From Thozetella sp. PMI_491 (lineage: Eukaryota; Ascomycota; Sordariomycetes; Chaetosphaeriales; Chaetosphaeriaceae): a DNA stretch of 64,000 nucleotides. Below are positions 1 through 31,530 of the stretch, piece by piece. The notes below the pieces were generated by a model that was not told the DNA's origin, ran no database searches, and saw only the letters and a program-made list of their open reading frames with translations. The stretch is from assembly GCA_021432635.1 (NCBI GenBank), contig MU270091.1, positions 240,895 through 304,894 on the forward strand. The letters are read 5' to 3'. Positions within the stretch are counted from its first letter, which is position 1, and each line of letters begins with the position of its first letter. The position numbers were made by a program, and so were the translations under genes.

Positions 1-1110
1 GAGTGGCTTGACTGCGAGGCCGCTTTCTTCGAAGCCATCCGCGCCGTCGGAAGACCCGGAGACTGTCTGGAAGGACATAGTCGTATTGAACAAGGGCTTT
101 CCTCCTGTGTCTAGGCGATGCTGTATCTCAGCCAATGAGCAGGACTGGTGCGGAATGCTGCCAATGTAGTCGGATCGCATTTGCTTGACCAGCTCTAGTG
201 CCGTGCAATCGGGATCGATGTGCGCATGGCAGACCAACATGTTGACAAAAAGACCCACGGCCTCTTGAATTCCGTCAATTTCGGCATCGCGACCCGCGTT
301 GAGGTAACCGAAGCAGACATTGTTGGAGCCGGCGAAACTGCGCAGTACCAAAAGCCAAGCAGCCTGGACAACGTTGGCCGGCGTGACCAGGTTCTTGCGG
401 CAGAAAGCGCGTAGTGGAGCGAAGCCATCGAAGGTTGTCTCGATTCTGCGCAGCTCTCGTGTAATCCCCTTGGTTTCACACAGCGCCGGGAACAGGCAAG
501 GTTCAGCGTGATGCAAATATTCGCTCCAGTAGTTCAGCGACTCGGCCGGGGCGGTACGCTGGAGATGGGACACAAAATCGCTGTATCGTGGTCCCGGTGA
601 TTGGGTAATATGACCGTCGTAGAACATACCCAAGTCGCGGATAAGGACATTGAGAGAGAAGGCGTCACAGATGGCGTGCGTAATATCGAGGCGGCAGAAT
701 GTCTCGCCCGAAGCGGCCGTGCAGACCGTGAGTCGATGCGGGCTTCGGCGCATGTAGCCGCGCACTGGAGGTTGGTCTCTCAGGAACCGCACGGTATCTT
801 TGTCAGATTTGTCGCTCTTCAGGATTGTCACCTCGGGTGCCAGCTCCTTGAGTACGATCTGGACCACTCCCCCGTTGCGGGACACGCTGTCTGTAAACAG
901 AGTGCGGAGGACCGGGTGGCGGCGCACAACATCATTCCATGCCCGCTTCAGACGAGCCACATCTATGCCTCTAGCAGTATCAGATGGAATGACTTCGAAG
1001 ACGGACTGTACGGCGTAGACTTCGGGGTCTTGTTCTTGGCTGAGCAGGATCGCATGCTGCATGGGCGTGGTGGGATAAATGTCCTCAACATCGGAGATGT
1101 CAGAGACACC
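1..1110 (-). other. NRPS C6 condensation domain, cut by window edge
   Basis: C6 begins with VEDIYPTTPMQ and continues to base 1 with no stop codon. The active-site motif reads THAICDA near residue 6930: the catalytic second His and the Asp are present, but the final Gly of HHxxxDG is Ala. The C-terminal half includes QAAWLLVLRSFAGS and GLFVNML stretches typical of C domains. It follows E3 and would accept a D-configured donor. What lies beyond (another A-T, or a terminal cyclizing domain) is outside the window. Confidence 0.8.
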
Positions 1111-4100
1111 GATTTCTGGCAGACGCTCTTGTGCAAGAGCCTCGAATTCATTGTCATCGAGATCCATGAGAGTAAAGCTCCGAGATGTTAGACGAGCTTC
1201 TGTGTTGCCAGCGTGGAGGTTCAACGGAAGCTCGGTGGCGAGATCTTGACAGAGCCGAGCCCACTCGTGGATCTGGGTTTTGCGAGCGATGGCGTTGCTG
1301 TATATGAAAGAGACCTGAAAGCAGCCTTGAAGGACAGAAACCGAGATCTCAATCAGAGCCGGTCGCTCTACATCATCTCCGACGTCCGATGCGTACCTCT
1401 CATCTCGAGGCTGGAGGGCGAGCAGAGCGTCTTGAGTCTCGAGCTGCTGGTATTGACCTGTGTAGTTGAAGATAATCTCTACCGGCTCCGTGCTTCGTAG
1501 GTTTTTAGATCCCAGGAATTTGCTGGAGAAGAAGGAGAACCCGTTGTCGGGCACAGCCTGTCGTGAATCGTGAATCTTGCGAATTGCCTCAAGCACATTG
1601 TCTCCGGCTGTTGCTGGGAGGGGAAGCATGGTGGTGAACCAGCCCACGGTGGACGCCAAGTTGATTCGTTCAGTCCATGGCTCGCGGCCGTGGCTCTCAG
1701 TGTAGAAAGCTGGCGCACTTCTGTCTGTAAAGGTCCTTGAGAACGCAGTAGAGACAACCCCAAGCAGGATGTCCAGCGGCTCTGTCCGCAAGACGTTCAC
1801 GCAATCCCCGAGGATCGCCTTTGTGATGCGTTCGTCGAGAGAGAAATTAATTTCCGCAGTGCTTCCGTAGTGGTTTTGAGCACCCTCCATGTTCCAATAC
1901 ACAAGGTTTGACTCGGGTACGGAGAATGGAAGGGAGTTCGCCAGAGGCAATTCCCTCACATGGTCGGCCTGTAGAGAAAGCCAGGTTTGGAATGGCAAAG
2001 GCTCTGGATCGGAGAGAGATCCTCGCTCCAGAAGCTCTTCCAGGTTTCCCAGTATCTCACGCCACGAAACCAGATCGACGACATGATGGTGAGCCACGAG
2101 GAAGAGGACCTGTCCACTATGAGACATGTGGCACAGGTCGGCGGCAAAGACGGGACCCTGTATCATATTGAGGCTCTCCTGGCTCCTTTCGACGATGCTG
2201 AGGAGTTGGTTGTCCGTGCATGATGAATGCGCCTCGTAGCGGAAAGATCCACGCGCCGTGGCCGCGACCGACTGTGTCCAGGCGCCGTCATGAGATCGAT
2301 GGAACCGAGCTCTCAGCATGGAATGGCGCTTGACGACTGTGGCGACTGCCTGCGAGATCTTGGCTGGATCCACGTATCGCGAAAGTCGCAGGAGAAAACT
2401 CTGGTTGAAACGCTTCCCCGCAACCTTGTCGATGAACATTTGCTGAATTGGGGAAAGGGGGAAGGGAGTGCCCACAAGCTCGCGGCTGGGAATAGCTGGC
2501 TGTTGCTGTTGTTGCTGATCGGTAGGCACGGCCAAGCCGGCCAGCTCGCTGATGGACTCGCTTCGCAAAACCTGCTGAGATGTGATGCGAAGTCCCTGGG
2601 CGCGGCAGCGAGCAACGAGCTGCATGGCAGTGATGGAATCGCCGCCGAGGCCCATAAACGATGCATCCGGGCATGCCTTGTCTACCGGAATATTGAGCAC
2701 CTTCCGGATAATTTCTTGGAGTAGACTCACGACTGACTCAGTCGTGACCTGTGGGCGCACTGCGACCCCCTTGCTCTGGATCGGCTCTGCACTATGGACC
2801 AGTTCACTCTGATTGTACAGATGTGACGCCTTGCGATCTTGCCCAAGCGACGGCTGGCTGGTTTGGTGATTGTCGTCCTCCCTAGTTGAAGCCAGCCGCT
2901 TTGGCTTTACAACATTGGCGTGGCCCTCTGTGGTATTGAGAGATATTTCTCCAAGTCGCATTCCAGGATTCTGGCATAGCTGGTCTGCCACACTCGCAAG
3001 CTGCGAGAGGAGTCGACGGATGGCCATCTCGGATAGCACCTTAGGATCATACAAGGCGGTCATTTCAACCCGAGCGCCGTCCTGGACAGAACATTCCACT
3101 ACTAACGCAGAGTCAAGGAAACTGGCGTTGGTATTTTGGGAAGGCTCCAAGCTGAGAGCAGTGCCGGTCGGCGGCCCATGGGATGACGTTTGGATGACCA
3201 AGATGTTCTGGAATTCGCATGCGTCCCTTGCACAGGAGCTCAGCTGCTTCATCTGCCCGAAGCCAGCGTGCGCGAACGGAATCACGTCGGCGGCCATTCG
3301 ATGAACAGTCTGCAAGAACACTTCGGCGGTCTCTCCAGGGTCAATTCTGATGCGTGCGGGCACCGTCGTGATGGTAGGACCAGGGAGCTGGTTAATACCC
3401 TCCGCAGCCGCATTCCGCCCAGACTGTACGTCACCAAATACCACGTCCTGGGTTTCTGATGCTGAAGAGACAACCATAGCCCACGCAGCTTTCAGTACTG
3501 TGGGAACGGTTGTTCCCGTTGTCGAATCGTGCTGTATTACCCCATGCTGGCTCAGTTGTTTGGAGGCGTGCGGCTGGTAACGAGGAGACGGCAGGCGAGG
3601 AAAATCGACGCGTGTGTACCCATCCAACTGGGCTAGCCAGTATTTTTCGATCTGCTGCGGATCCATAGATCGTAGATAGCGGATGAAGTTGGAGTAGGGA
3701 GGGACCTTCTCGACTTGGTGACCTTCGTACAGCTGGGAAGCCATGTCGAGCAGCATGTTCATCGTCCACCCGTCATAGACGGCATGGTGCAGAGTCCAAA
3801 CAAACCAAGATGTCTGACCGTCCTCGACGATGCCAAACCGCGTTAGAATGCGGCAGTGCTCGAAAGGTTCCTGGCGTTCCGATTCCATGTAATCTTCGAG
3901 AGAGGTTCCCGCCTTCCACTCCAGTGTTTTCCCGAATACAACCTGGAACGTCCCGGAATCTTCGACTTCTATGATAGCGGTACGCAGAATAGGAATTTTG
4001 GAAACGACTTCTTCCCATGCTCTACGGAAGCGTGGCATGTTGATATGATCCGGCAGACGGTACGTCTGTCGGAGCACATATGCCTCCGGGTCGCTGAGAG

Positions 4101-7100
4101 TGACGCCAAAGAGGGTCTCTTGCAGTGGGCTGCACGGATAGATGTCCTCAACAGTGGTAGAAGAAAGGTCTCCTCTCGTCCGCGATACCATGTCAAGAAT
4201 TTCTTCCTTGGCTTCAGGACTGACGAGCTCAAACGGTTTGACATTGTTGTCAACCTCAACTTCGGCCCGGGGGCTATCGGGTTTCGATTGATTCAGCAAG
4301 AGCTTCGCCGACCTGGCCAGGTCCCCGAGAGTGGTATTGTTGAAGAGGTTGGCAACAGTGATACTGACTCCCGCCTGTTTGGCTTTCAGGACAACTCTCA
4401 TGGCGGAAAGGGAGTTCCCTCCGAGTCTGATAAAGCTGTCGTCGGAGCTGATCGATTCAGGTGAGCGCTTCAGCTCCTCGGCCCAGAGAGACCTGAGCTT
4501 GGCTTCCGCTTGGCTTTCGACTGAAACCATTTCTGTTGAAGCGCCGACAGGAGCCTGGAGATCCAAGGAGTAGATACCCGCATCCTCTGGGGAGAGACGC
4601 GAAACAATGTGGCTCAACTGGTCCCGATCCACTTCCCCGTTAGCACCCTTAGGTAAGGATGTCAGGGGCAGGTATAGCGATGGAACCATGCTGGGTTGGA
4701 AGGTCTCTGCCATTGTTTCCCGGACGAAGAGGAACATGGACTTCATGGCGCTCGTCAAAGGAACGATGGTGACCCCACCTGACCTGGACTTGCCGCTGGC
4801 CTTGGGAGTTCGCAGACAGATGCAAGCTGCCAGTATGCTCATGCCTGTCTCAGACGCGATAGAGACCACAGTCGCCTCACTGCGGCCTGGCAATAGTGCC
4901 AGAAGTTCGTCTTCGATCTCGTCTGTGGTTATCTCGTCGTTCACATCGGAGTCTTGAAGGTTGGTCTTCCATTCCGCAACCACATTAGTATTCTCACCCA
5001 GTATGCATGCGCTGGAGACTAGCTGCGTCGGGTCATCCATGACCATCTCCAGAGTCTCCTTTAGCAACCCCGCCACGGCAGCGACTATTTTGTCTGGAAT
5101 CTCATGAGCCCGGTATCGAAGGACCACTTCTAGGTCGCTGGCCGAATGGCTCGCGTTAAGTGTGATAGCAAACTAGCATTAATCAGAAAGTTGCACTATG
5201 GAGAACTTTGAGTGGGAATTCACATACCTCGGAGGGATCATATGCGTCGAGAATCTTCAGCTCCATACCACGATCACTGCTGGCTATCGATATTGAGGCC
5301 GACTTCTGGATTGAAACCGCTGTATTGAACAGTTTTCCGCTGCTGGCTGCGGCCGAAGTCTCCTGAAGGTCGGCCAGCGAATAGTGCTGGTGCGGTAATG
5401 CGGACAAGAAGTCGTCCTGGATAGCGGCAGCGATGCTCTCAGGCGTTGACTTGTCGGAAAAGTTGACCTTGCATGTCAAAACGTTAATGAACGCCCCAAC
5501 CGCCTCCTGGATTCCTTCAACTTCAACATCTCTACCAGAGACGGCGTATCCAAATGACACCTGGTCTGAGCCAGTGGAAAGTCTCAGGACCAAAGACCAT
5601 GCGGTTTGGAGGACCGTCGCAGGCGTAAGACCGGACGTTTCGCAGAAGTGGGCGAGGCGGCTGGCAAGCTCTGGTGTCGCCCAGCCAGCTTTCCACGAAA
5701 GCACCTGTCCAGGATCGGAAGACAAGTATTCCTGGGACGCGGTTGGAAAGATGCATGGGTTCACATTACCCAAGTACTCGGCCCAATATTCCCCGGCCAC
5801 CTCTTTATCCTGGCTCCGGACATAGTCGATATAGTCTCGGTAGAGGAAGCCAGGGTCTGAAGAGAGTGTTCCGTCGAATGCAGCGCACAAGTCACCAAAT
5901 AGAGTCCCCGCTGAGCCTCCATCCATCAGAGCATGGCTCATCTCGAGCTTGGCATACACTCCCGTCGGCGTCGCGCAGATGGCGAGTTGGTGTGCAGCGA
6001 CTCCAAAGACTTCGAGAGTCGCGTGCGCCCCAAGGATCGCCAAAGCATCCTGCTCATTCTTGGCTTGGACGTGGACTACGCGGGGTGCCAGGTCGTTATA
6101 CACAACCTGACTATAGATCTCTGATGATGAGAGACCCTCCACAAAAACAGTTCTTAGGGTCGCGTGTCGGTTGACGACGCGACTCCATGACTTTTCCAGT
6201 TGGACAGCGCTAAGCCCCTTTGAAGACGTGGCCTCGAAGATGGTACTGACGAAGTAGTTGTCCGATGTGGCCACAGAGTGGTTGAGAAGGATTGCAGTCT
6301 GCAGTGGAGAGCAAGGATAGATGTCTTCCACATTGGCACGGTTTCCATGGCCAAACTCGGAAAGCTTCTGGGGGAGGGTCTCAAGGAGTTCATCATATGT
6401 GAACTGCATCAGCGGGAAATCGCTCATAGTGAGTTGAGGGTGATCGAGGCGAGCAAGGCTAGTGATTGTGTTCGTCAAGATGCTTTTAGAAGTTCGGATC
6501 CAGGTTTTAATTCGATTCAGATAGTTCGAGTCGGTGTTGTAATTGAAAGACAGACTCAAGCACCCGTTCGTAATGATGGCGGACACCTCGAAAAGTGCAA
6601 ATCGAAGTGTGTCCTTGCCAACGTCCTGGGCGGAGGGAGGGAGTGGGTAGTCGACTTGTCGGAATAGTCCGTCCTCGCGCTCAAGGTTTTGGTAGAGTCC
6701 CTGATAGTTAAACATAATTTCGGCCGGCCCATGGTGGGCAAACGCATCTCGTCCCAAACCATTAGCATATCGTGAGACAAAATATGACCAGCCGTTGGCT
6801 GGGATCTTTCTGCGGACATCCTTTGTCTGGCGCACGCAGTGCACCAAGTCACCGCAGTGATCCAGCTCAACGTGGACTGGGCTAACAGTGGTGAACCACC
6901 CAACCGTAGAGGCAATGTCGAGTTGTGGTTCCCACGGCTCGCGTCCGTGTGCCTCAACGAAGATTGTTGGTGATTCTCGATCTGGGAATGCTTTGCGGAA
7001 TGCACACAGTACAGAAGCGATTAAGACATCCGAGATATCCGTCTGCATTGCTTCATGGCATCGGCCAACCAACAAGTCTGTAAGTTTTGCGTCGAATGTG

Positions 7101-10100
7101 ATACATTCTTCAGAAGTGTTGCCATATGTGTTGGAAGCGATGGCGCGAGGTCCCCAGTATTGTATATTCGGAGTAGGAATGTCGATGGGAAGTGCAACTT
7201 CGGGTGCCAGGTTCTCACGACCGTGTGCTTCCTGGAGGTTGACCCACTCGCTGAATGACAGCGATCCGGTGGCGCTCAGGCTTGCCCCTGTCAAGATGCT
7301 CTCGAGGTCGTCAACGATGATACGCCAAGAGACTAGGTCAATCACCAAGTGATGCGCAACAAGAAACAGGAGCTGGCCTTGGTTGTCGACAGAATTGTCG
7401 AAAAACACGGCCTTGAATACAGGCCCACGGAGAGGATCGATGGTTTGAGCGGCTGCCAAGATGGGAATGACGGCATCCATAGTCTCAGTAGCATACACCT
7501 CGAAGCCAAAGACGCCAGGGCGGTCAGGGAGATAATGCTGGGTCCATTCACCGCGTTCCGTTGTGCTGAACCGAGCTCGAAGCATCGCGTGTCGCTGAAC
7601 AAGAGTTCGGAGTGCTCCCTTGAGGTCGAAGGTTGACACCTGACGGTTGATGCGTAGGAAAAAACTCTGGTTGAAGCGATGCGAGTTGTCGAACCATGTC
7701 GAGGGAGTTGCGGAAGACTTGGCGAGGGTGTCGAGATACATGGTCTGGACCGGAGCAAGCACGAACGGCTTATCGGACTCAACAGCACTAACAGAGGCAG
7801 AGACTAGCTGCTGGGATGGCTTCACGGTTAAAGCAAGTTGGGAGAGAGTCTTAGGGCTCATGATATCGCTGACGCGGATCGCTAAACCCTCTGCCCGGCA
7901 TTTCGATGTGAACTGGATCGCCGAGATGGAGTCGCCGCCGACATTGACAAATGATCGGGCCATGTTGACGCGCTCTGATGGAAGGTTGAGTACTTGGCAG
8001 CAAATTGCGCGGAGCTGCGCTTCAATGCCTGTTTCTGGCTCCTGCTCGCTCTCTGCGCCATTGAGGCTGTCGATCTGTTCTTGCACCTCTTTGGTCCATC
8101 CTTCCACCCACTTCTGAATCGCACCGCGGTTCGTCCTGCCGGCAGGAGACAGGGGTATGGCGGTGGCTGGGACCACGACGTCCGGCAACATATAGGTAGG
8201 GAGCTTCTCGGCAAGCGATTGTTGGATACTGGCAATAACCGAGGAGACAGCGCTTCGGGGCTCGCTTTGGACTAGCTCCAGAGGAGTCTCGGCTTCGGAG
8301 ATGTAGTCGCGAAGAACAACAACTGCGACGAGCTTCTCGGCATGTGGGCCGAACTGGGGGCAAACCACGGCGGCATGCTTAACTGCGGACTGGAGTGCAA
8401 GATCCTTGTCAATCTCGCCGAGTGTGATCTTGTGGCCACGGAGCATGACTTGAGTCTCTTTCCGCCCAATGTAACGGACCATGCCGGCCGAGTCGAAGTA
8501 TGCAAGGTCGCCAGTCCGATAGAAGCGCCGGGCGGTCGAATCGGGTGCCCATTTGAGATTCTCTAGGAAGGCAGCCGAGTTGGGGTCCGTGTGGTCGAGA
8601 TATCCGCGAGCGAGATGGTGGCCTTCAAGTAGAAGCTCTCCGGGACATCCAACTGGAACTAAGCAATTCGATTCGTCGACATCAACTATCCAAGCCCTCC
8701 CTCCTGAGGGGGTGCCGATGTTGGAGGCTTCAGTGGACGATGTGACATGAGAGTTGATGACAGAGAGGATGGAGGACTCGCTGGTGCCATATCCGTTGAT
8801 AAGTTGGAGGGACGAGGCCCAAGTCTTGACATTCTCGCTGTCGAGTGCTTCGCCGCCGAGGACAAGCGTGCGCAATGTTGGTACATCTCGCGGCTGCATA
8901 GACTTGACGGTTGACGGCGTCATGAACGCCCAGTTGGCCTTTGATGCCTGGATCATGGCTGCCGCGCCATGCCGGCGCGGTTCGCTGTCGGGGATACAAA
9001 TGCAGGCACCAACGGTCAGAGAGCCGAGAGTCTCCAGGAGGCTTGCATCGGATGAATACGACGTGGACTGGAGGATCCTCTTGGTGTGATCCATGTCCAT
9101 TCGTTTAGTGAAGGCCGACGCGCTTGTCAGGAACGCATCATGCTGAACCATGCACCCTTTGGGCTCTCCGGCACTTCCCGACGTAAAAGCAACATACAAT
9201 AGGTCTTGCGGGCTAGCCTTAGGCAGAGAAGCGGCCCTTGTAGAGGGGAGATTCCAAATCGCGGCATCGCTGATTGGGAGGGTGAGAAGCTCGGACTGCC
9301 ACAGCTTCTGGCAGCTTGGGGATGTAAGGATAAACTTGGCGCCCGTTTGGGCAACAATCGAGCGCAGCTGGTCGATGGGGTTAGCTGGGTCTAGTAGGGC
9401 TATAGCACCCGTCGCCTTGATGACCGAGAGCATGGAAACAACGGCCCATGCAGACTTCTCGAAGCACAGAGGCACCACGGTCTCTGGACCCACCCCCATA
9501 CCGGCGAGGTAGGAAGCAAGTTTGGAGGAGAGCCTGTCAAGCTCCCTATACGTGATCTCCCCATCCCAGGCAGAGATGGCCAAAGCGTCAGGTCGATACC
9601 GGATCTGGAGGCCGACCACGTCCTGATAAAGCGATGTGACTTTGGCAGGGCAGTCTCGGTTCCAGCGCAAGATGTCGTCCTGGTCTTGCGGACTGATTAT
9701 ATCGAGGGTACCCAATAGCATGCTGCTCTGTTGATGCTTGACCAGCTGTCGTACGAGGTGTTCCAGCTGTTGCATGAGGCGCTGTGCCTCATCTGCAGCA
9801 ATGACCTCCGGGTCGTGCTGCACTAATATCTTGACGGCTTCCCTACGGACCTCACACTCCACGACGAGAGGGTATGTGTAGAATCGGGTCAGGGGTACGT
9901 CAATTCTCTCAACCCCAGGCAGACTCGTGTCATCTGGTCCGCTGTCAGGCTGGACGACAAAAAGGGTGTTAAAGTCACAAGCGAACTGGCACTCAGGGCT
10001 GTAGCGTCGAATCTGCTGTAGCCCGACATGCTGGTATGGGATCGTGGATATGATGCGCTGCTGAACACCGCTGACAAACTGGGCGATGGTCTGTGTGCGT

Positions 10101-13100
10101 TCCAGGGACACGCGGACGGGTATGGTGGCGATGGTCGGTCCGACAATCTCTGTTATGCCTTCTAAGGGGACGTCCCTTCCGGTTGCAATGGTCCCGTAGG
10201 TAATGTCAGAAAGCCCCGAGTATTTTCCGAGAAGCAATCCCCAGGCCGCACGTAAAAGCGTCGAGGTAGTGATGGAGGACTCATCGCTGCGGGTGAAGGA
10301 AAACTCGTGGACGGCTGTGGCGTCGGCGCATACGGCGCGGCCCAATTTCGGGGATCGGGGAAAGACTGATGCGGCAGACCCTTTGAGGTCGGCGATCCAG
10401 AAATCCCTGGCAGCATCGGGGCTCGTTTTGCTGAGGTAGTCCACGTAAGGAGCAAAACCCTGTATCCCGGTGACTGGGTTACCGAGGTACGCTAGCTCGA
10501 GCTGATCCATGATGCTCTTCATGCTCCAGCCGTCGTATAAGGCGTGGTGGGCCGTCCACACAAAGTGATGGCTGCCCTTCTCGACAACCCAGCCATAGCG
10601 AGAGAGGCGGTACCCATAGCCCATGGTATCAACTTTGTCTTGGGAGAGGTACTCCTGGAGTGACGAAGTCGACTGAGCGACGACGAAATCCTCCGCAAGG
10701 ACAATTTGGCGAGATCCTTCAGGTGTGTTGATGACCCTGGTTCGAAGAATCGGGTTCGCTTTCGAAATGGCCCTCCAGGCATCGAGATACTTGTCATGAT
10801 TGGCTTCCTTTCCGAGACGCCATACCGACTGGAGTATGTAGGCACCGGGCTGGTTAGCAGATAGGGCAAGTAGACTCTCCTGCAGGGGCGTGCAAGGCAT
10901 GATGTCCTCCACCTGGGCTGCTTCGACTCCGAGTGACTCTACTCCGCCAGCCATTATTCTCTTCCTTTCTTCTTGAGATATCAGTGAAAATGGGGGGATT
11001 GCCACCGTTGTCTGGGTCACACCTTGAAACTTAGCAATGCGAGAAAGCCCGGTAATAGTACGGTGTTCGAATACATCAGCCACGGTGAAGTCGAGGTTAG
11101 ATCGACGGGCGGCAGCAACGAGCTTTATGGCACCGATGGAATCTCCGCCACGCTGGAAGAAGTTGTCGTCGATTCCGACATCTCGCTGCGGTATGCCCAG
11201 GACCTCCTCCCAGAGGCGAGTGAGCTGCTGTTCCATCGCGGTCGTTGCCGGTCGTTTCGAAAACAGTGCCAAACTGTACTTGGCGGCTTGGGCGTTGTCC
11301 AAACCACACGCAATGGATGCCAGTAGTTTTGTGTCCACTTTGTCGGATACCGTCCGGGGAATGCGGTTGACGGTTACGAACATGGATGGCACCATGTAGG
11401 GAGGAAGCGCATTCGCCAGGGAGGCAGCCGCTTCGGTTAGCTCTTTGACCATCTTGTTCGACAGGTCTACGGCTGTGCAATCCGTTTGGTCGGATGAAGA
11501 GGGTGCACCAGACAAGCAGATAAATGCAACGAGCTGACGGTGTGCCGCCTCACCGGTGCGGGACACGATCTGGGCCGTGACCTGCTGGGCGATGGAAAAG
11601 TGGCGAAGAACATGATGCTCAACTTCGGCAAGCTCCAGGCGCTGACCACGAAGCTTAACTTGGCCATCCTTTCGGCCAAGGAAGTTGACAGAGCCATCGC
11701 TATTGTATCGCGCCAGGTCTCCCGTCTTGTAGAACCGAAGGTTGCGTACGTCCCGGCCGCCGGCCGGCAAGCTGCTGGAGGGTAACCACGCAGGAGCCGG
11801 CATAAATACTTCGTCAGTTTTGGCTGGGTTGTTGAGATAACCGCGCGCGACGGTTGGTCCGCCGACAAGGAGTTCGCCTGGGCACCCAATGGGCATGAGT
11901 CGGTGATGGTTCTCCGGATCCACGATCCACACAGTGCTACCCGCGGGGCGGCCGATGTTGCTAGAACCTCCGATAGTATCCCTGCGCACGCGAGCGTTGC
12001 CCAGCGCCATCACAGAGGTTTCGGTCGGGCCATATCCATTGACTAGTGTCAACGCGTCAGCCCAAGTGGCAACATCGTCCCCGGACATTCCCTCGCCGGC
12101 CAGCACGAGTGTCTTAAGGGTAGGGAGATCCTTCGGCGAGAGAAGGCGTGCGAACGATGGGGTGATGGCGGCCCAGTTAATCTTCATCCTATTGATAAAG
12201 CCGGCGATGTTGTTTGATCGCTCTGCGTTGGTGGGGATGCACACGCAACCGCCGAGGAGAAGTGGCGCGAATGTTTCCACGATGGACCCGTCAAAGGCAT
12301 AGGACGAGAACTGCAGCGCCCTCGTAGCTCGGTCAATATGGAGCTTGCTTGACATAGACTTTAGGTTGCTGGCGAAGGCATGATGCTCGATGACCACGCC
12401 TTTGGGTTTCCCCGTAGTGCCTGAGGTAAAGATAATGTAGGCGGCGTTCGTAGAAGCTCCCGAGTGCTCGTCTATCCTAGTTGGAGGCATCGTCTGGATG
12501 GTTGACTGGTCGACGACGACTGTGGGCATAGCCATTCGTTCCCAGATACCGGGCTGCATAGTAGAGCTGAGAAGGAGAGGAGCCGCCACCTGCTCGATAA
12601 TGCTCTTTAGACGTTCCATGGGATGAGCGGGATCGAGAGGTACGACGCAACCCCCGGCCTTGAACACGGCAATATAGGATACAACAGCCCATACGGACTT
12701 CTCAAACAGGATTGGAACCTTTGCTCCAGTGTCTACGCCCAACATTTCGAGACGTGCTGCAAGACGGTCGGACAGCCCGTCTAGCTGAGTATATGTGAGG
12801 CTGGTAGCAGTCGAGCAGAGTGCCATGGCGTCTGGTTTCAGTCGAACTTGCTCTTGGAAAATGTGGTGGAGACACCGATTTCTTGGCTCGGGGATGGGAA
12901 GGTTCCAGTCTAGAAGTTGCCGGCATCCTTTTGGGGAGAGCAGCGACAAACTGGAGATCTGCCTGTCGGGGTTCTCAAGAATGCCACCAACAGCCATCAC
13001 CAGCGTCTCGGCCACTGTCTGGGCGTGGGCGTCGTTGAGGCTGGTGGTCCAGTAGGTCATGTTTGCAGAAGCTGTTTGTTCTCCCGCTTCGAAGTGGACT

Positions 13101-16100
13101 AGGATGTCGAACTCGGTCGGGTCCCAGCTAGCCACTTCACGGAACGCGATCGCTGCCTTCAGGTCGGGCTCAGTTCGTCGCTGGAGATCAATTCCGGTGT
13201 TGAATATCTTTTGGCCCGAATAGCCGAGGGCAGATTGGATCTCCCCGAGCGAGCAGTGCTGGTGGTCGAGGCTGTCTAGAGTCGAGGATGCTATGGACTC
13301 GATCACCTTGCGAACCGAGTCTCGACTGTCGATGGTGGCGTGAGAGAGCATGGTACTAACAAACATCCCAAGCATGTTCTGCCCGCCTGTTCCCAATCCA
13401 TCCCTACCGGTGGCGAGATGACCAAATACCACGTTCCCAGACCCCGTATAGGCCCGTAGAACAAGCGCCCACGCGGTCTGGAAGATGTTGAACCAGGTCA
13501 CGTTATTGTTCGCGCAGAAAGCAGTCAAGGTTTCCGGCGATACCTTAAGGTCGATTGGGAGGCACCGCAACTCCTTGGCCACCTTCGCGCCGCCAGCTAG
13601 TTCGGAAAGATTAGGAAAATAGCATGGCTCAGTACCACGCAGCTGGGACTTCCAGAAGTCCATACTTCCTGCCCGATCTCGCTTCTCGACGAAGTCGACG
13701 AACTCAGCATAAGAGGGGCCCCGGCCCCGTGGCAGTCGGCCCTCATACGCAGAAGACAAGTCGCGGAGAAGGGTTTTGACGGACAAACCGTCCAAAATAG
13801 AATGGCTGAAGTCGAGTTGGCACATGGCTTTACCGCCTTCAGAAGTGCAGAGGGTTAGTCGATGGGGGGGCCGCAGATGGCTGTAGCACGGGGCTTTCTG
13901 TGCAGCAGCAAAGTCCTTAGCGTTTGTTGTGTGTACAAACACAGGGGCGATTTTGTCCAATACAACCTGAACATACGTGCCCGGCTCCACGAGATCCTGC
14001 ACGAAGACTGTCCTGAGTGCAGGGTGCCGCTGGACGACCACATCCCACGCCTTTCGAAACCGCGCGGCATCCAGCACGGAACCGCTTTGTGGTTTCATAT
14101 CCCAGACATATTGGACAGCGTATGCTTCGGCTTGTTGTGCTTGGCTCAACAGTATGCCCTGCTGCACTGGAGTGCAAGGATACATGTCCTCGATGACGGG
14201 GGTCTCGGGGCAGCTCTCCTGGAGTTTAGGAAGTATTTGTGAAACGAGCATGCTGAGGCCGGATTCCTCAAGTTTGACTCGCGGGAAGTCGGTGATGGCG
14301 TACTTCTTGGAGGAAGCCGCGAGGCGAGCAGCAAGTTGTCTCAGGGTCCGCTCAGTACGGAAGGCCCAGGATCGGATCCGTGCCTGGTGAGCGGCCCTGC
14401 GGCTGTATGCGAAAGTGAAATGAAGTTGGCGGGCTTTCACTACTGCGGAGATCTCAAAAAGGCACATTCGTCTGGCACTCTTCCCCACGTCTGCTGCTGG
14501 AAGATCCAGGAGCTGGAACAAGCCGTCGGCCCTCTCTAGCTGCTGGTACTGGCCTTCATAGTTGAAAAGGATCTCCATGGTGGTGTCTTGCTTCGGCGAG
14601 GAGGTTTGAGAGGCAGGAAAGAGACTTGCGAGAAAGTCGGCTCCCTGTGCTTTCGTTTGCTGGCGATGCTCTTGGACATTGCGAAGATTGAGGAGAAGGT
14701 CGCTCTCTCGGCGGATGATGGGTTGGAACTTAGATATAGTGGTGAACCAGCCAACAGTCTCCGAGATGTCAACGCTGGCATCAACATCGCGACCATGCCC
14801 CTCGACAAAGATGGCAGGAGGTGAGTGGGCCGGGAAGGTATGAGCGAAAGCGTCGAGTATTGCCACTAGGAACAAGTCCACGGGTCCGGGACTCGTCGCA
14901 TCGCGGCCAGTCTCTAGCAGAACCTTTGTATTCGACTCATCCATGCCAAAGATTGTTTCCATCACAGCATCTTGCCGGTTGTGGAGTGGTGACATGGACC
15001 AAAAGTCCCATTCGACCGGTGCAGGCTTCGAGGGTGCAGCCGGCGCAGTGGCAGGCTGGCTTCGAAGTTTTGCCCACGACTGGAAGGATCTGGGGACCGG
15101 TCCTAGCGGCTGGGAACGGATGATACTTTCCAGTTCGTTTAGCATGGACCGCCATGAAACTAGGTCAACAACCAGGTGATGGGCAACCAGCAATAGCTCC
15201 CGGGCGCCTATCCCTTGAAACAGGGTCGCTGAGAATACGGGGCCGTCGAAAATGTCCAGGGAGGCCTGCGCAGCTTGGGCAATGTCGCGAATTTCGAATT
15301 CCATCTCCACATCGCAGACCTGGAAATGATAGTTGAGGTCCTTGGGTGAAGAGGTGGCCTGGGCCCAAGCCCTGTCCCATTGCCTCTGGAACCGCGCGCG
15401 GAGCATCGAGTGCCTGGCGACAAGGGTGTCCAATGCTGATCGGATAGTTTCTGTCCTAACGGGGTCGCGGAGGCGGAGCATGAAGCTTTGATTGAAGTGA
15501 TTTTCGCCCTCGGGGGCGTGACTGAAAAAGAGTTTCTGGACCGGAGTGAGACTGAAAGGCGAATTGTATTCCTCGGCTTCGGCCACGACGGCATCAGCTT
15601 CTTCATCCACCAAGGCAGTCGCACAGGCAGCCACCTTTTGAAGCGTCTGGCTTCGGAGAATATCCTGGACGCTGACGCCGAGCTGGGCAAGCTTGCATTG
15701 TGTCCTGACCTGTGTCGCCGTGATGGAGTCTCCGCCGAGTCCAAGGAATGAACTGTTCAAACTGATGTTCTCCGTTGGGAGGTTAAGGACGCGGGACCAG
15801 ATAGCCTGGATTCGTTTCTCCGTGTCAGTCATCTGGGCTGGAGTTTCCGTCGTTGTTGCAGGAGCGGTTGTTGTGAATTGTGAGATAGCGAGCAGGGTGT
15901 CCTGGTGCATGTTGTCCACCCACTCCTTCAGACCCTTCCTATAGGTCTTCCCGGAGCTAGTGAGTGGCATTCGGGTGATCGCGGCCCAGAATGTTGGGAC
16001 CATGTAGGATGGGAGCGCATCTGTGAGGGTTTTGCGGAGGACACCGACCAAGGCGGTGGCAGATTGCCTCGCCTCGGCGGGGATGATCTCGATGCCTTCG

Positions 16101-19100
16101 TCGCTTTCCATATCAGCACCGGCAATGCCCTGCTGGTGGAACTCGATCAAAGCAACAAGACGCTCCCGGCAGCGCCCTTTGGTACCCTTGATGACGGCGA
16201 CGTGCTTAACGAGGACATGGCTCGAAATATGATGCTCAATCTCGCCGAGCTCGAGCCGCTGTCCTCGAATCTTGACTTGGTGGTCCTTACGTCCAACGAA
16301 GTCCATCGTACCATCACTGTTGTACCTAGCAAGGTCGCCAGAGCGGTAGAAGCGCGACCGCGGACTGCCTGCGTGGGCCCACGAGGGGCTCTCAACGAAG
16401 ACCTCCGCCGTCTTTTCGGGCAGGTTGAGATAACCTCGCGCTACGGTAGGCCCTTCGATAGTAATCTCGCCCACACACCCAATGGGAACTAGCTGGTTCT
16501 GGTTCCTGGGATTCGTGAGCCAGACGTTGTTGACAAAGCCCCGACCAATGTTGGAGGCCATAGATGCACCGGTGACCTTGCCACTCCACATGGTGTGGAT
16601 GGTACATTCTGCCGGGCCGTAGCAATTGTTCAGGTCCACAGCAGGTGCCCATTTGGTTGCCACCGACTTGGTGAGTGCCTCGCCGGCCGTGACCAGCACC
16701 GCCAGAGACGGCACTGCAGCTGGCTTGATCAGCTCAGCAACGGTAGGCGTCAGGCACGCCCAATTGCAGCGCATCTTGTTAATGGCACCCTTGACGTCGT
16801 TCATTCTGTCGTAGTCGGAAGGGACACAGATGCAGCCGCCATAGATCAGAGTGGTGCAGGTATCCTGAATGCTAATATCGAAGGTGTAGGCAGCAAATTG
16901 GAACACGCGTGACTCGGGACCCATGTGGAGGATCTCCCCGTGCTTGTGACAGCTCGTGACAATTGCCTTGTGCTCCAAGACAATACCCTTGGGTGTGCCC
17001 GTGCTTCCAGAGGTAAAGATGATGAAAGCAGGGTTGTGAGACGCCACTGTCGTGCACGGAGTCGACGAATCCTCCTCCAGGTCGCCCATAAGGGCAGAGT
17101 CAACCGGTACAATGGTAATGCGTCCGCCCGACAAACCGCTCAGAATGGGGACATGCTGAGGGGCAGCAAGAATCATGCTAGCGCCGGTGTCGCCAACAAT
17201 CTTTTCCAACCGAGAACGCGGGTGTGCCGGGTCGAGAGCTACGCAACCTCCGCCGGCTTTGAGAATGGCCATGATGGCTACCGTGGTCCACATCGACTTA
17301 GAGAAGCAGAATGGTACCAGAGTCTCCGGTCTGACACCTCCCCTACGCACAAGATGGTGCGCCAATTTCGTTGCGTAGCGGTCTAGCTCGGCGTATGTGA
17401 GGTTCCCGTCGTGTGCATGAACTGCCTGGGCGTTGGGGCGAAGCTGGACTTGTCGCTCAAAAAGAGTGTGAAAGCATGCGTCCAGTCCGCTGGACACGGT
17501 TGGGTTCCACGAGTATATTTGGCTGAGTTGATCCGCGCCGATAAGGTCCAGCTCTGCGATGGTTGTGTTCTTCGCGTTCACAATGCCAGCCATTGTTTTG
17601 CTGATGGTGGAGGCGAGATTGGCTGCTTGTTGTTCTGACACCATATCAGTCCAATAATTGAAACTTACCGTAACCCCTTCTTCGCTGGCGCTGACAATGA
17701 TGACGATGGCGTACTACGCATGGTTAGCACTGGAGAGAAATTATAGAAGAGGGCAGCCCGTCCGCACCTCGGTAGGGTCGTGTTCATTCAGCTGCTGAAT
17801 AGCTAACGAGGTGGCAAGCTCTGTCTCGGGGACGGCATTTTGGAATGCGAGGACAGTGTTGAATAGAGTCTCGCCGGATAGACCCAAGGCGTGATGAACA
17901 TCGGCCAATGACACGTGGTGGTATTCCAGGTTTTCCATACCGCGCTTCTGGAAGCCTTTGAGGACATCTCGGATCCTCATTGAATCTTCCAGTGCCATGT
18001 GGCAGGGCAGGACGCTAAAGTAGGCACCTACGGCGTCGGAGATGCCGGGAAGATCAAGGTGTCGGCCGGATGTAGCGTAGCCAAAGGAAACCTCGTCAGT
18101 ATTCGCATAAGCTCGGAGAATGATGGCCCACGCTGCCTGGAAGACATGGAACAGAGTGATTTCGTTTTGCCGGCAAAAGGAGACGAGTGATTCCGCAGTG
18201 ACCGAAAGGTTGACTTTTCTTGACCGGAATTGTTTTGGGATGTTTGTCTTGCTCTCGTTGAGTTGTGGGAAGTGGCAAGGCTCAGAGCCCTTCAGGGACT
18301 CCTTCCAATAAGAGCGGAGTCGGTCCGCTGGTCGAGACGTGAGGTGGTGAACAAAGTCCCGATATGGGGCCATATCCTCGACTCCACTGTTGAGCTTCTC
18401 ATCGAAAGCCAGCTGGAGGTCACGAAGGAGCAAAGACACGGAAGCGCCATCAGCCACGGCGTGGCTAATCTCCAATCGCCCGAAACTGCCGCCATGCTTG
18501 TGGGACATGACGATCAGGCGCTGACAGAGCCGCTCCAAGCCAAAGTTGATGTGCTCGTATTCTTCCAATCGACGGATAGCATCTTGGACGCTGTCCGATT
18601 GATCTTGAAGGTGGAGGAATAATGGCTCTACCCCTTTGACAACCACTTGGGCGAATGGGCCCTGTGTCGTATCGGGGTTCTCGATGAAAGCTGTGCGCAG
18701 AGCCGCGTGTTTCTTCACAACTGCAAGCCAGGCTTTGCGAAGCCGTTGCAGGCTCAGAGGAAGCGAGCTGTTGCGCTGCTTTATCTCAAATACCTGGTGA
18801 AGTCCGTAAAGGCCAGTGTCCGATTTCCCTTGTGCGACAAGAATGCCTTGCTGCACGGGTGAGCAGGGGTACACATCATCGATGTGAATTCCACCCGCCT
18901 CGGAAGTCATATGCGTCCGGAATCGTGGAAGGCTCTTCTCCGCAAGGGCAAAAAGCGCCTCGTCGCGATGGCTCACGGCGAACTGTGGCCCGCCGTGAGA
19001 GGCTGCCGTACAGGTTGCGGAATTGGTCATGATTAGTTCCTGAATTGTTTTGCCACTGAGGAGGTCTGACACCAGAATCGAGAATTTGGCCGCTCGTAGC

Positions 19101-21632
19101 TGTTTGGCAGCCCGGATAGCGGCAAGCGAGTCACCACCTAGCCGAAGGAAGGACCGATCCGTCCCGACTCTGTCGGGTGGGATACCGAGCGCAAGGGCCC
19201 AGATCTCCTGCATCCTTCGCTCCTCGCTGTTAGATGGAAGGGAACCGGCGGTGGCTTCGTCAGCACCGGTCGCTAACTGGAAAGTCTCCGCATCCATGTT
19301 GTGCACCCATTGCTGGATGAAGGATCGATACGTCTTGCCGGAGACGGTGAAGGGGATGGCATTGACCGGCAGCCACAGCGAAGGAATCATGTGGGGAGGC
19401 AGCAGAGATGTGATAAAGTCTCGTGCAGAATCCATCTCATTCCATATATCTGTGTGCATCCTATCGACCACCTGGATTCCAGACTGAGACAGGCTTGTCT
19501 CGATGTCATGGTGGAGTCCCACGAGCGCGACCAGTTTGCCCTGGCACGGACCGGACTTGGCCAACACCACAACTGCTTCTGCAACGGCGGGGATACCTGT
19601 GAGGTAGTGCTCGATCTCGGCCAGTTCAACGCGCTGTCCGTTGACCTTGACCTGTGCGTCGCGACGCCCGATGTACTCTAGAGTGCCATCGGCATGGTAA
19701 CGCACCAGATCGCCAGTTCGGTAGACACGCGCAGGTTGGAAGACCGAGTCGTTATACCCACCCGCCTTCCAGCTGGGCTTGCTAACGAAGACTTCCGCTG
19801 TCTTTTGCGGAAGATTGAGGTAACCTCGCGCAAGCGAGGGTCCATCAATAAGCAGCTCGCCTTCACACCCAATCGGGAGGAGGCGGTTGCAGTTCTTGGG
19901 ATCGGCCACCCAAAGTTTGACGCCAACAGCGACACCGATGGTAGACGGCGAATGCTGTGTGCCGTCGAAATCGGCGAAAGAGCACATGACACTGCTCTCA
20001 GCCGGTCCGTAGGCGTTGGTGAATCGGACCGATGGAGTTGAAGACCATATCTCTGCGCAGCGCGCCGTCACGGCTTCCCCACACTGAATCAGGTGCTTGA
20101 GAGTGGGCACCTCGGCCGGGCTGAGCATGCATGCCACAGTGGTTGTCAAGCACGCAGTGTTGCAGCCAAGCGTGGTGATGATGCCTGCCAGGTCGTTGGT
20201 CTTTTCGGCGTTGGACGGAACACAGACGCAACCTCCGAACATTAAGGTGGCGAAAATGTCGAAGATGTGAATGTCGAACACATAGTCGGCGAACTGCAGC
20301 ACGCGGGAGGCGGGACCCATTCTCCAGGCACGACCCTGAGCCTGAAGGCTACCACACATGGCCCAGTGCTCAAGAACCACACCCTTAGGAACGCCGGTGC
20401 TTCCGGAGGTAAACACAACGAACGCAGGGTCATGAGGGCTAGCCCTCCGAGCAACACCGGCCCGGGAGAGTTCGGTGCTGTTTTGAATGGCCGGGGTTGT
20501 GCAGAAGTCTTCGCCCAGAACTACCACATTCTGCACGAGTTCTCTAAAGACGGCTGAGCCAGCAGGCGACACGATGACAACCTTGGCCCCACAGTCCTTG
20601 ACAATAGTCTCGAGGCGTGCCTTGGGGTAGCCTGGGTTCAGGGCTACGCATGCCCCACCGGCTTTCATAATCGCCAGCATGGCAACGATTGCCACTGGCG
20701 ACTTTTCGAAGCAGTGAGGAACCAGGGTGCCAGCTCGAACACCTAGAGCTGTGAGTTCTCGAGCTAGCTTGGAGGCTAGGCGATCCAGCTCCCGGTAGCT
20801 CAAGGAGACCATGGAAGAGTGAATAGCCGGAGCCTCTGGCTGAGCTGCCGTCACGGCCTGGACGACCTCGTGGATGCAAGCATCGACGGTCGGCAGATCG
20901 TACGAGTTCCATTTCGTGATAGCAGCTCGATCCTTGGGACCAAGGATATCAAGTTGGCCAACGGGGAAGTCGTTACCCCCAGAAATGATCTGAGAGAAGA
21001 CGTAACCGAAGACGTCGGCGACGCTCGAGGCCTGGTCAAACCCAAGGAGATTTTTGGCGAACTTGATGGAGACGTCCAGGATATCAGTGCCCTCGATGTC
21101 GACATAGAGATCAACCTGGTTTGTGTAAGCCAATCTTCGAGGAAGCCGTCCAGATCAAGATCAAACCTACGTCATGAGTCGGGAAATCTACCGGGATCTT
21201 AGAAGATCGCAGGAAACGCATCATGGTGTTGAAGCCGCGGTTCGAGGCCATGCCGTCCCCATTGATCGACACCCCAGACCCAACGGTCCGGATCAGGTCA
21301 GACACGGACGACTTGGGATCCACAGTGAGATTCACAGTGCCGCCCGAAGTCGACGGGTCCAGGGTTACACCGAAACAGACGTCGGTGCCGCCGGAATAGG
21401 TCGCCAGAACGACGGCCCAGGCAGCCGTGAGGACGTGCACGGCGTTGCAGCGGTTTTCGGCACAGAAGGCCTCGATTTCGCGGGCGTCGGCTCCTAACCC
21501 AACCCCCACCATTCCCATCCCCACCGCCATGATGGTGTCGTTTCCGGTGCGAAGACACGGGAACAGGCACTTCTCATCGTTTCCGAGAACCTTCTTCTCG
21601 GAGGTGGGGAACGGGGCACACACGGATCCCAT
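1..21632 (-). CDS. Giant multimodular non-ribosomal peptide synthetase, 3' end outside window
   Basis: Assembles a peptide on phosphopantetheine arms without ribosomes. Exons are 21171-21632, 17768-21115, 5228-17713 and 1-5172; introns are 21116-21170, 17714-17767 and 5173-5227, all phase 0. At least 7156 residues are visible and the frame is still open at base 1. Order from the N terminus: partial C (C*), A1, T1, C1, A2, T2, E1, C2, A3, T3, C3, A4, T4, E2, C4, A-domain remnant, T5, C5, T6, E3, C6. T serines sit in GGDS or GGNS motifs near residues 817, 1933, 3461, 4530, 5687 and 6278. The three E domains carry HHxxxDxxSW. The ATG at 21632 was chosen because the frame opens there and leads directly into the shortened C domain; the ATG at 17644 is internal to exon 3. 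I do not recognise the product. Family and domain order are clear; the start codon and the unseen C terminus are less certain. Confidence 0.96.
1180..4165 (-). other. NRPS segment C5-T6-E3 lacking an A domain
   Basis: C5 has YPCSPLQE and HHAVYDG near residue 5895, apparently intact. It is followed by only a linker of some 80 residues before T6 (LGGDSI near residue 6278); no A-domain motif was found in that linker. The linker encodes a short CAG/CTG-type glutamine run near base 2505. E3 has HHHVVDLVSW near residue 6462, ESHGRE, VGWFT and FNYTGQ, so it looks functional. An epimerase acting on a T domain with no neighbouring A domain is unusual and implies loading in trans or chain passage from T5. 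Confidence 0.82.
4300..6340 (-). other. NRPS segment C4-(A remnant)-T5
   Basis: C4 has YPCSPLQ and SHALMDG near residue 5199; the intron 5173-5227 lies just after DPSE. Between C4 and T5 there is no complete A domain. About 4590-4990 encodes a stretch resembling only the C-terminal A subdomain, ending in LPKGANGEVDRDQL. This matches the layout of the A10 motif PLTxxGKxDR with glutamate in place of the lysine. The large N-terminal A subdomain (A1-A7) is missing. T5 carries LGGNSL near residue 5687, with the attachment serine kept. T5 therefore cannot be loaded by its own A domain. Confidence 0.82.
5173..5227 (-). other. NRPS intron 3 (55 nt, phase 0)
   Basis: Donor GTATGT directly follows a DPSE coding sequence; acceptor is GCTAG with TGATTAATGC as a possible branch region. 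Removing it joins two open frames in phase 0 and restores the C4 C-terminal strand. The position matches those of the other two introns in this gene. Confidence 0.85.
6440..10920 (-). other. NRPS module C3-A4-T4-E2 with atypical A4
   Basis: C3 has MPCTPLQ and HHALYDG near residue 3660. A4 departs from consensus at several core motifs: A3 reads FTSGSAGEPKG, A5 reads NGYGTSE instead of YGPTE, A8 reads MLRGHKITLGEID, and A10 reads SPAGRTNR, placing arginine (codon AGG near base 8128) where the catalytic lysine belongs. Pocket residues by eye are D-A-L-S-V-G-G-I-L. T4 has VGGDSI near residue 4530. E2 has HHLVIDLVSW near residue 4725, EAHGRE and VGWFT. If A4 is active the fourth residue would be D; if not, T4 needs loading by another A domain. 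Confidence 0.85.
11030..14215 (-). other. NRPS module C2-A3-T3
   Basis: C2 starts with YPCTPVQQ and has SHSILDG near residue 2575. It follows E1 and should accept a D-configured donor. Its DPTE position is uninterrupted, unlike C1 and C4. A3 has FTSGTTG near residue 3034, NGYGPTE, YKTGDL and an A10 of the form VSDKVD, so the lysine is present although the usual Gly before it is Asp. Pocket residues by eye are D-G-V-S-V-A-G-V-M plus Lys, suggesting a small or hydrophobic pocket, but this is inference only. T3 has RGGDSI near residue 3461. No E domain follows. Confidence 0.86.
14230..18920 (-). other. NRPS module C1-A2-T2-E1 (epimerizing)
   Basis: C1 begins with YPCSPVQQ and has SHAVADG near residue 1042, with the catalytic His and Asp present. 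The intron 17714-17767 falls inside C1 just after DPTE. A2 is complete (FTSGSTG, NCYGPAE, YRSGDL, A10 with SSGKTYR); pocket residues by eye are D-I-Q-T-V-A-C-I-H plus Lys. T2 has LGGDSI near residue 1933. E1 follows with HHLVVDLVSW near residue 2115, then EGHGRD, VGWFT and a FNYEGQ stretch, which together separate epimerases from condensation domains. The second residue is therefore predicted to be delivered as the D-isomer. The substrate is not assigned. Confidence 0.88.
19040..21632 (-). other. NRPS segment C*-A1-T1 (truncated starter C, first A and T)
   Basis: The first about 230 residues match only the C-terminal half of a condensation domain (an AAWAVVLATYSG-type helix followed by a GTDVCFG stretch). 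The N-terminal half with HHxxxDG is absent, as in several fungal synthetases that start with a short C*. A1 is complete: FTSGSTG near residue 388, NAYGPAE, YRTGDL and A10 with SGKTYR, so the catalytic lysine is kept. By eye against GrsA the pocket residues read D-I-F-T-I-C-A-V-M plus Lys; I cannot assign a substrate. T1 has LGGDSL near residue 817. A1 should load the first residue, and no E domain follows T1, so that residue should stay L unless A1 itself selects a D-form. Confidence 0.88.
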
Positions 21633-29439: not shown

Positions 29440-30777
29440 GGTATAATTGACGACACAAAATTGTATTTGACGAGTGTGCACAGGAAACCAGCCAGATGGA
29501 GAAAGATCTTCAGAATCACCCAATGTCTGGGGGTTACGGATGCAACCTGGTCTAAATGTTTTTTCTTCTTGTCATTCCAAGTACATTGCCGCCAAAGCTG
29601 GGTATTCATCGGGCGACTCACACCCTCATGCTATAACGCATAGGAGCTGACATCCTCCATCGCCACATTGCAAGAGGTTCTCGGCGTCTATGTGATTACC
29701 CTAACCCTGTAGACACCGGCGCTACATACGCGGCGCAGCCTCCGCAGAATAATTAGATGCCAGAGCGGATCTGCGAGGTCACGGCTGAACCGCGATTACC
29801 ATTCATTATAGCAAAAGTAAGACGTTGGCTAGTCGGGGAAGAAAATGTACAGTACTTGGGGGCTGTACGTCCCAAGGTACCGACTTCTGGTGGGGGGGTG
29901 TATGCGGCGATCTGCGCCGATGCGTTGGTCAGATCGGGGCTCTCAAGCTGCCCGCCAATCAACTCTGCAGCCCAGGATCTCTTGGCTTGGCGGAACCCTA
30001 CACAGCCTCCCCACACTACAACGCAACAAAGTTCCTCGTTCGGTGGAAGAAGTAAGCATTTCCACAAACGTGCCAACCTCCAACAACCTCGCTGTTTCGC
30101 GCTATAGCTGAAGGCCAAGCATGGCGTGTGGGTTACCAACGAGTAAGCCAACCACGATTGGACGGTTGGGGTAGGATTTCCGTGGAGAGCAAGTTCGACG
30201 CCACCGACGTCGCGCCAGAGGGAAAGGATTGTGGATACTGGCTATTCACAGGCGGTGAACTCCATAGAGCGAGCAGAGCTGAATGAGCTGTGCTAATAAA
30301 ATCTGCCTGCCGAGAAAGGTAGAGGCGCACGCGCGGCGCCAATAAGCCTCAGTCTGCCCGCCTCGACGGTTTTAGAGCCGCGGTATTCCATGTTCTTACC
30401 CCGTGGCGGCGGGCAAGGGGCGGCATCGGGACAAATAGACCAACGCAGAGACCCGGGTCAGTATGCTGTAACACGGCCCGTCAGGCGCGGCTTTTGGCTC
30501 GGAACAGAAGCAGCTATATATGAAGGAGCCAGCCCCACCGGCCCTGGCAACTGAGCTAGAGAGGCATGATCATCTAAGTCGAGCCTTCGGCTAGGTGATC
30601 GACGTGCTTAGAAGTCTAGAAAAGGGTATCAGCCTCACACCTACCCGGCCGCCATACAAGCTGGCGAACATTACGCCGCCAAATTTGGGTGAGACTTGAT
30701 CCGCGCACTAGAACAGAGGCTCTGGGGTGCCTCCTCCAGCAAAAACATGTCACAACGCGCTGACATGAAGTGTTCAT
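29440..30777. promoter_or_regulatory. Divergent intergenic region, ABCC transporter / CENP-B-type gene
   Basis: About 1.3 kb with no supported gene. A TATA-like TATATATG at 30515-30522 lies about 260 bases before the ATG at 30778 and could serve that rightward gene. Open frames near 29750-30150 exist on both strands but resemble no family. No repeat or tRNA was recognised. Confidence 0.5.
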
Positions 30778-31314: not shown

Positions 31315-31530
31315 CGGCTCGATCAGGTCGATATCTTTCACCGTATTCGGCTTTGATATACCAGATCCCACTTCTGGCTTCGAACTTCTAGTATATAGTT
31401 TTCAACCAGTTTCGCAGTTGCACACATGCTTATAACTTAAGAGTGCCTACCGAATTTATCATGTCATCGATCCTGATTGCTGGCGCTGAACAGGGTCCAT
31501 ATGGACGACACACACAAATATCGTTCTAAC

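Follow-up and report, generated by a model that had tools for sequence, protein, structure and literature searches.

A nine-module nonribosomal peptide synthetase of Thozetella sp. PMI_491 with an A-less carrier domain ahead of an internal epimerization domain

Introduction

A thiolation (T) domain that has no adenylation (A) domain of its own and is followed by an epimerization (E) domain occurs in the bacterial mannopeptimycin synthetase, which is described as C-A-T-E-C-A-T-C-T-E (C, condensation domain) and in which the second A domain serves both of the T domains that follow it (PMC8949500). In fungal siderophore synthetases, A3 of SidC is reported to charge T3, T4 and T5, with loading of isolated T5 requiring its C domain, and A1 of SidD to charge the T domain of a module with a truncated A domain (dA) (PMC10192304). 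HcpA, the fungisporin synthetase of Penicillium chrysogenum, is given as containing an A-T-E-C-T order with an A-less T domain and a D-Val-L-Val product at that place; its authors prefer a trans-acting A4, with loading of both carriers by A3 as the alternative (PMC4041764). Here, we describe a nonribosomal peptide synthetase (NRPS) gene of Thozetella sp. PMI_491 that begins in a window of 64,000 nucleotides on contig MU270091.1 (contig C77 below; C77:240895-304894), the window being the whole stretch of DNA analysed. The genome totals 72.3 Mb in 157 contigs.

Using hidden Markov models (HMMs) built from the gene's own domains, including an A HMM of 527 positions from A1-A7, the layout of the synthetase was found to be half-C-A1-T1, C1-A2-T2-E1, C2-A3-T3, C3-A4-T4-E2, C4-dA-T5, C5-T6-E3, C6-A5-T7, C7-A6-T8, C8-A7-T9 and C9. 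From its sequence and by analogy with the systems above, we propose, with a probability of about 0.6, that modules 5 and 6, having lost their own A domains, still work as elongation modules, with an A domain from a different module of this enzyme charging their carriers.

C5-T6-E3 resembles the mannopeptimycin synthetase as an A-less C-T-E module below A-bearing modules, a likeness of layout only, and the earlier note on this DNA, which had called an A-less T domain followed by an E domain an unfamiliar layout, overlooked this bacterial precedent (PMC8949500). As described, the A-less module of the bacterial enzyme directly follows the donor module with neither a dA module nor an E domain between them, whereas in the Thozetella synthetase A4 is separated from T6 by a dA module and from T5 by E2. 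Like SidD/Nps6 and SidC, the synthetase combines a truncated or absent A domain with intact T and C domains, and for those enzymes cross-module loading was shown, in SidC up to two modules downstream (PMC10192304). Unlike the Thozetella synthetase, SidD and SidC have no E domain in their architectures as described, and the SidD dA is described as lacking about 290 N-terminal residues, whereas the dA studied here lacks about 411 of the 527 HMM positions (PMC10192304). Ferrichrome and fusarinine synthetases are recognized by the absence of E domains and by (A-T-C)n plus T-C repeats or A-T-C-dA-T-C; the present gene has three E domains and nine modules, and in the A tree A1-A7 stand apart from the A domains of contigs C67 and C9. 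HcpA shares the A-T-E-C-T order, and its A3 code (DAMFVGGIF/VF) resembles that of A4 (DALFVGGIL), but HcpA is described with tandem A4-A2, a C-T-C-T end, and a C rather than an E domain after the A-less T domain (PMC4041764). Tandem A domains are absent from the Thozetella synthetase, which ends C8-A7-T9-C9. The likeness of the A4 code to the valine code of HcpA is a weak hint at an aliphatic residue. No fungal A-less C-T-E order is named in the text of the open-access literature searched, from which layouts drawn only in figures would escape. The layout is not categorically new, since a bacterial A-less C-T-E and fungal A sharing are both on record; it is one of dA and A-less modules with, as proposed, shared A domains, joined to a mid-protein epimerase and extending over four of nine modules.

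Results

Missing A domains at T5 and T6

The earlier note had seen two T domains and an intact-looking E domain after C4, with no complete A domain for either carrier, and this description was borne out by Pfam, the HMMs, the motifs and the open frame. Over this tract, Pfam found Condensation, PP-binding, Condensation, PP-binding and Condensation, with AMP-binding absent. In the C4-T5 linker, the match of the A HMM was limited to positions 412-526 of 527 (35.8 bits), that is, to the C-terminal subdomain (A_sub) alone, and the C5-T6 linker, where the note had allowed for a hidden A domain, gave no match to the same HMM. An A-core HMM run at maximum sensitivity in six frames over window positions 2400-6400 gave nothing above the inclusion threshold, the best domain (1.8 bits) being the dA stretch itself. 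A hidden A domain in either linker was ruled out by these Pfam, A HMM and six-frame searches. The term A-less is exact for T6, which is without any A sequence, but not for T5, which keeps the A_sub remnant.

On an A_sub HMM built from other NRPS genes, the dA scored 50 bits, compared with 94-130 for A1-A7 and 49-129 for 22 controls, of which the two lowest (49 and 58) were a degenerate domain of contig C20 and a domain of contig C85 cut by an exon end. Pfam AMP-binding_C was uninformative, as it fell below the cut-off in A1-A4, A6 and A7 and was absent in A5 and the dA. The AlphaFold model of the dA (predicted local distance difference test (pLDDT) score 74, five rows) resembles the A_sub-peptidyl carrier protein parts of LgrA, PvdL and SrfA-C, with a query template modelling (TM) score of 0.3-0.5, and aligns with A_sub of benzoate-CoA ligase at 3.2 Å over 111 columns. 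The model of the linker, T6 and E3 was poor (pLDDT 50, three rows; linker about 26) and was hardly used.

A recent copying of C2-A3-T3-C3-A4-T4-E2 into C4 to E3 was not supported by the best identities within the gene. C4 was nearest to C1 and C6 (31%), C5 to C7 (34%), T5 to T7 (45%), E3 to E2 (40%), and T6 to T2 and T4 in a tie (34%), so that E3 alone was closest to its counterpart in the proposed source.

Gene structure and reading frame

The gene was completed by adding 26 kb of the contig to the left of the window, and its end, C77:230530, lies outside the window, 10,364 bases to the left of base 1. The spliced product has 10,562 amino acids, with five frame-keeping GT..AG introns of 54-74 bp and no stop in 10,562 codons. 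Exon 4 provides an open frame of 1,731 codons from the end of C4 to beyond E3. A frame or intron error as the cause of the missing A domains was ruled out by the frame-keeping introns and this single open frame. The introns in C1, C4 and C6 (window 17768, 5228 and 20 bases left of base 1, respectively) occupy an identical site after DPxE, and C2 has no intron there; the common site is a trace of shared descent of the three domains.

Carrier, condensation and epimerization domains are kept

Across the whole gene, the motif residues were kept in all T domains (Ser, 9/9), all full C domains (His and Asp, 9/9) and all E domains (HH..D, 3/3); C6 has the variant DA in place of DG. Yardstick HMMs were built from other NRPS genes of this genome, with those of contigs C19, C67 and C9 excluded. 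On these, T5 scored 87 bits (21 controls, median 86, minimum 75), C5 391 bits (22 controls, median 349) and E3 441 bits (5 controls, median 430). E3 carries the HHxxxD, EGHGRE-like and NYxGQ-like motifs, it falls with the other E domains into one clade of 9 rows at 100, and its PDB matches were TycA, GrsA and PvdL. On TIGR01720 it reached 44.2 bits, under the cut-off of 74.2, as did E2 with 66.2. The GC content at third codon positions showed nothing unusual in any domain.

State of the other A domains

The motifs were compared over 36 A domains of this genome, with intron-split domains and three dA excluded. The A3 ATP loop was broken in four of them, namely A5 (FTPDSN--LRG), A7 (YTSRNTERLRG), one domain on contig C20 and one on contig C19. 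Asp235 was replaced in A5 and A7 only (2/36), by Asn in both, and Lys517 was Lys in 32/36, the exceptions being A4 (Arg), A5 (Thr), the same domain of contig C20 (Arg) and the domain of contig C85 cut by an exon end. TIGR01733, a curated A model set for bacteria and archaea with a cut-off of 317.4, gave 388.6 bits for A2, 385.7 for A1, 377.3 for A3, 368.4 for A6, 317.8 for A4, 299.7 for A7 and 272.0 for A5. By sequence, A1, A2, A3 and A6 are clearly intact, A4 is borderline, and A5 and A7 fall short; of the two remaining A places, one holds a remnant and the other is empty. Among modules 5-9, A6 alone is clearly intact. The A-less tract that the earlier note had described is present, but the loss extends beyond it to A5 and A7, which lie outside the window and are disabled by motif. 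Two observations speak against calling A7 dead, namely its whole-domain score of 605 bits, near the control median of 614, and its kept Lys517.

With 35% identity and no sister relation in the A tree, A5 and A7 seem to have been disabled separately, and the idea that both are copies of one dead domain was not supported. The gene shows four A losses: one core deleted, one domain deleted entirely and two motif losses in non-sister domains. The chance that four random losses would all fall at A places was 0.005 with equal odds or 0.04 by length, a rough and post hoc estimate over 30 domains (9 A places, 9 T, 9 C and 3 E, the N-terminal half-C excluded).

Stereochemical order

A quick tree was made of 50 C and E domains, and another of 32 T domains. 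All ten C domains that follow an E domain (C2, C4 and C6, three of contig C85, three of contig C20 and one of contig C19) fell into a clade of 16 (SH-aLRT 98), together with six further C domains including C1 and the domain C9. C5 was placed in a separate clade of 17 (93), which is free of any post-E C domain. The nine T domains preceding an E domain, T6 included, were all placed in a group of 13 (90/96; bootstrap not settled), the remaining four members of which include T1, and T5 was in the other group. As C5 is not of the post-E type, T6 is of the pre-E type and C6 is of the post-E type, a normal L-then-D order of extension is preserved in the tract. Positions 2, 4 and 6 would carry D residues.

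Other NRPS genes of the genome

The survey covered 20 selected stretches from 10 contigs, amounting to a part of the NRPS genes. All 10 E domains at E < 1e-10 lay within these stretches or the window gene, and the T domain before the E domain had a full A domain in 8/10, the exceptions being those before E3 and before the E domain of contig C19. Like the window gene, the contig C19 gene has a dA whose match is confined to HMM positions 412-526, and in it, too, an A-less T domain stands ahead of an E domain. It differs in a broken A3 motif and in the loss of the Ser from both T domains before the first C domain, which read GGDEE and GGDEL. The gene is plainly degenerate, looks dead, and may encode a non-catalytic protein or be a young relic. 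The A_sub-T tree placed the dA-T units of the two genes on long branches in different groups; the truncations, both near the hinge that joins the two parts of the A domain, therefore look like separate events. T6 paired with the T domain of contig C19 (87/80), which is too weak to build on.

Further A-less modules were found on contig C49 (SidD-like layout), on contigs C67 and C9 (SidC-like T-C tails) and on contig C85. The contig C49 dA matches HMM positions 312-396, unlike the 412-526 of the window dA, and the A code that precedes the A-less T domain of contig C85 resembles the valine code of HcpA. The NRPS of contig C11 also opens with a half-C similar to the one before A1.

Coordinates and neighbourhood

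The features are given in Table 1.

Table 1. Features of the synthetase gene and of two further NRPS loci; positions are those of the window unless a contig is named.
Feature	Position	Strand	Remarks
NRPS gene	1..21632; full C77:262526-230530	minus	spliced in silico, six exons
half-C (N-terminus, before A1)	21632-20920	minus	C HMM 181-256, then weak 359-428
A4, nearest upstream A, candidate loader, borderline	8099..9652	minus	Lys517 to Arg, TSGSAG loop; TIGR01733 317.8 bits
T4	7826..8044	minus	GGDS
E2	6389..7777	minus	motifs intact
C4	4996..6328	minus	post-E C clade; split by 55-bp intron 5227-5173
dA (A_sub remnant)	4597..4950	minus	A HMM 412-526 of 527; A core absent; A10-like motif NGEVDR
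T5	4309..4527	minus	GGNS; in T group without any T preceding E
C5	2872..4149	minus	HHAVYDG; clade without post-E C domains
C5-T6 linker, about 53 aa	2752..2910	minus	A sequence absent
T6, without A domain	2533..2751	minus	GGDS; groups with T domains preceding E
E3	1144..2466	minus	HHHVVDLVSW, ESHGRE, FNYTGQY
C6, N-terminal part (remainder left of window)	1..1086	minus	post-E C clade; THAICDA motif
A5, left of window	C77:240583-239030	minus	full-length A
A7, left of window	C77:234115-232541	minus	full-length A
Contig C19 NRPS	C19:187460-196439		T-like without Ser, dA, T without Ser, E, C, A with broken A3 motif, T, C
Contig C85 NRPS end	C85:96504-98700		E-C-T-C; A-less T without A remnant; preceding A code DAMFVGGVL

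The window also encodes a protein of the acyl-CoA:6-aminopenicillanic acid acyltransferase family (PF03417; 49921-51345), which could tailor a peptide. Pfam further found ABC transporters, an amidohydrolase, an OPT transporter, an MFS transporter and a sulfatase (24413-36303, 36613-38508, 42020-42847, 47541-48761 and 55553-57382) and two Zn2Cys6 regulators (52045-53283 and 57880-59034). Outside the window, C77:221220-221824 and C77:223671-224294 hold a repeat peptide that carries HVDVLFGPAHYWR six times between KR sites, adjoining UstYa (PF11807) exons. This looks like a cluster for a dikaritin-type ribosomally synthesized and post-translationally modified peptide beside the NRPS.

Discussion

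From the anatomy, the motifs and the grouping of the C and T domains, we infer the following route of synthesis. The A domain would have been reduced to the A_sub subdomain in module 5 and lost entirely in module 6, and A4, one and two modules upstream of T5 and T6, each of which has its own C domain, would be the simplest loader, or A3 or A6 if A4 is dead. C4 would link the residue on T5 to the D-residue that E2 had produced, C5 would couple the chain to the residue on T6, E3 would epimerise this T6 residue, selected by the A domain of another module, and C6, of the post-E type, would hand the chain onward. Modules 7 and 9, whose A5 and A7 look dead, may be fed likewise, perhaps by A6. If A4 is the loader, residues 4, 5 and 6 would be one amino acid in D-L-D order. 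The earlier note had listed loading in trans, reuse of an upstream A domain and chain transfer from T5 to T6 as the routes implied; reuse of another module's A domain fits both the evidence and the fungal precedents.

Three observations weigh against this proposal. As described, no E domain stands between the loader A domain and the orphan T domain in SidC and SidD (PMC10192304). A4 has Arg for Lys517, scored 545 bits where all but two of 22 controls reached at least 563, and exceeds the TIGR01733 cut-off only as 317.8 against 317.4. T6 scored 72 bits, under the lowest of 21 T controls (75), with T1 and T8 of the same gene at 73.

Decay of the synthetase, in which selection for the product has ceased, A domains are disappearing as a result and the tract is a transient relic, is unlikely, but it has the most to be said for it among the alternatives. 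Four of the nine modules are without a sound A domain, A4 is borderline, and the N-terminal C domain is only half. An open frame says little about function, for the degenerate contig C19 gene still has one of 2,993 codons. Against decay, not only is the frame of the window gene free of stops over 10,562 codons, but the sites of its 9 T, 9 full C and 3 E domains are all spared, unlike those of the contig C19 T domains, and the concentration of four losses in A domains would rarely arise by chance, on the rough post hoc estimate above.

It is improbable that a separately encoded A or A-T enzyme loads T5 and T6 in the manner of syringomycin and ramoplanin. Such loading is known in bacteria, the cases named in the review being all bacterial (PMC8949500), and the genome holds 169 AMP-binding candidates. 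No A domain besides A1-A7 and the dA was found in 90 kb of contig C77 (215000-304894), nor among the window neighbours searched with Pfam, and genome-wide scoring covered 14 of the 169 candidates.

Module skipping occurs in bacteria, and a skipping of modules 5 and 6, or a passing of the chain along T4, T5 and T6 with no residue added and with epimerization only at T6, would follow from the absent A domains. We give this somewhat less credit still, since the condensation motif of C5 is intact and T5 and T6 keep their Ser; the transfer of an unloaded chain from T5 to T6, one of the routes listed by the earlier note, finds no positive support. An assembly error that deleted two A domains is highly improbable even though repeated A units are a usual place of mis-assembly, because no 16-mer is present twice on one strand of the 32-kb gene, which makes collapse of a repeat unlikely, the A domains are 32-43% identical to one another, both junctions are in frame, and the dA is eroded, which is not expected of a fresh collapse.

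We tentatively put forward a wider reading, which builds on cross-module loading of T5 and T6 and which we hold to be somewhat short of an even chance. It is that a non-siderophore NRPS is shifting to a few shared A domains, in which four or five A domains serve nine carriers across E domains and several modules, an epimerase acts on a residue that its own module cannot select, and A domains have been lost about four times while the T, full C and E sites were kept. The prediction of NRPS products assumes one A domain per residue, and nine carriers with four or five usable A domains would break this rule. If the reading is true, A sharing extends beyond siderophore synthetases and includes an orphan carrier before an epimerase, and with A4 as the loader, positions 4 to 6 of the product would be three like residues, D-L-D. 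The synthetase would then offer a natural way of testing the reach of an A domain and the reason why an A_sub remnant is kept.

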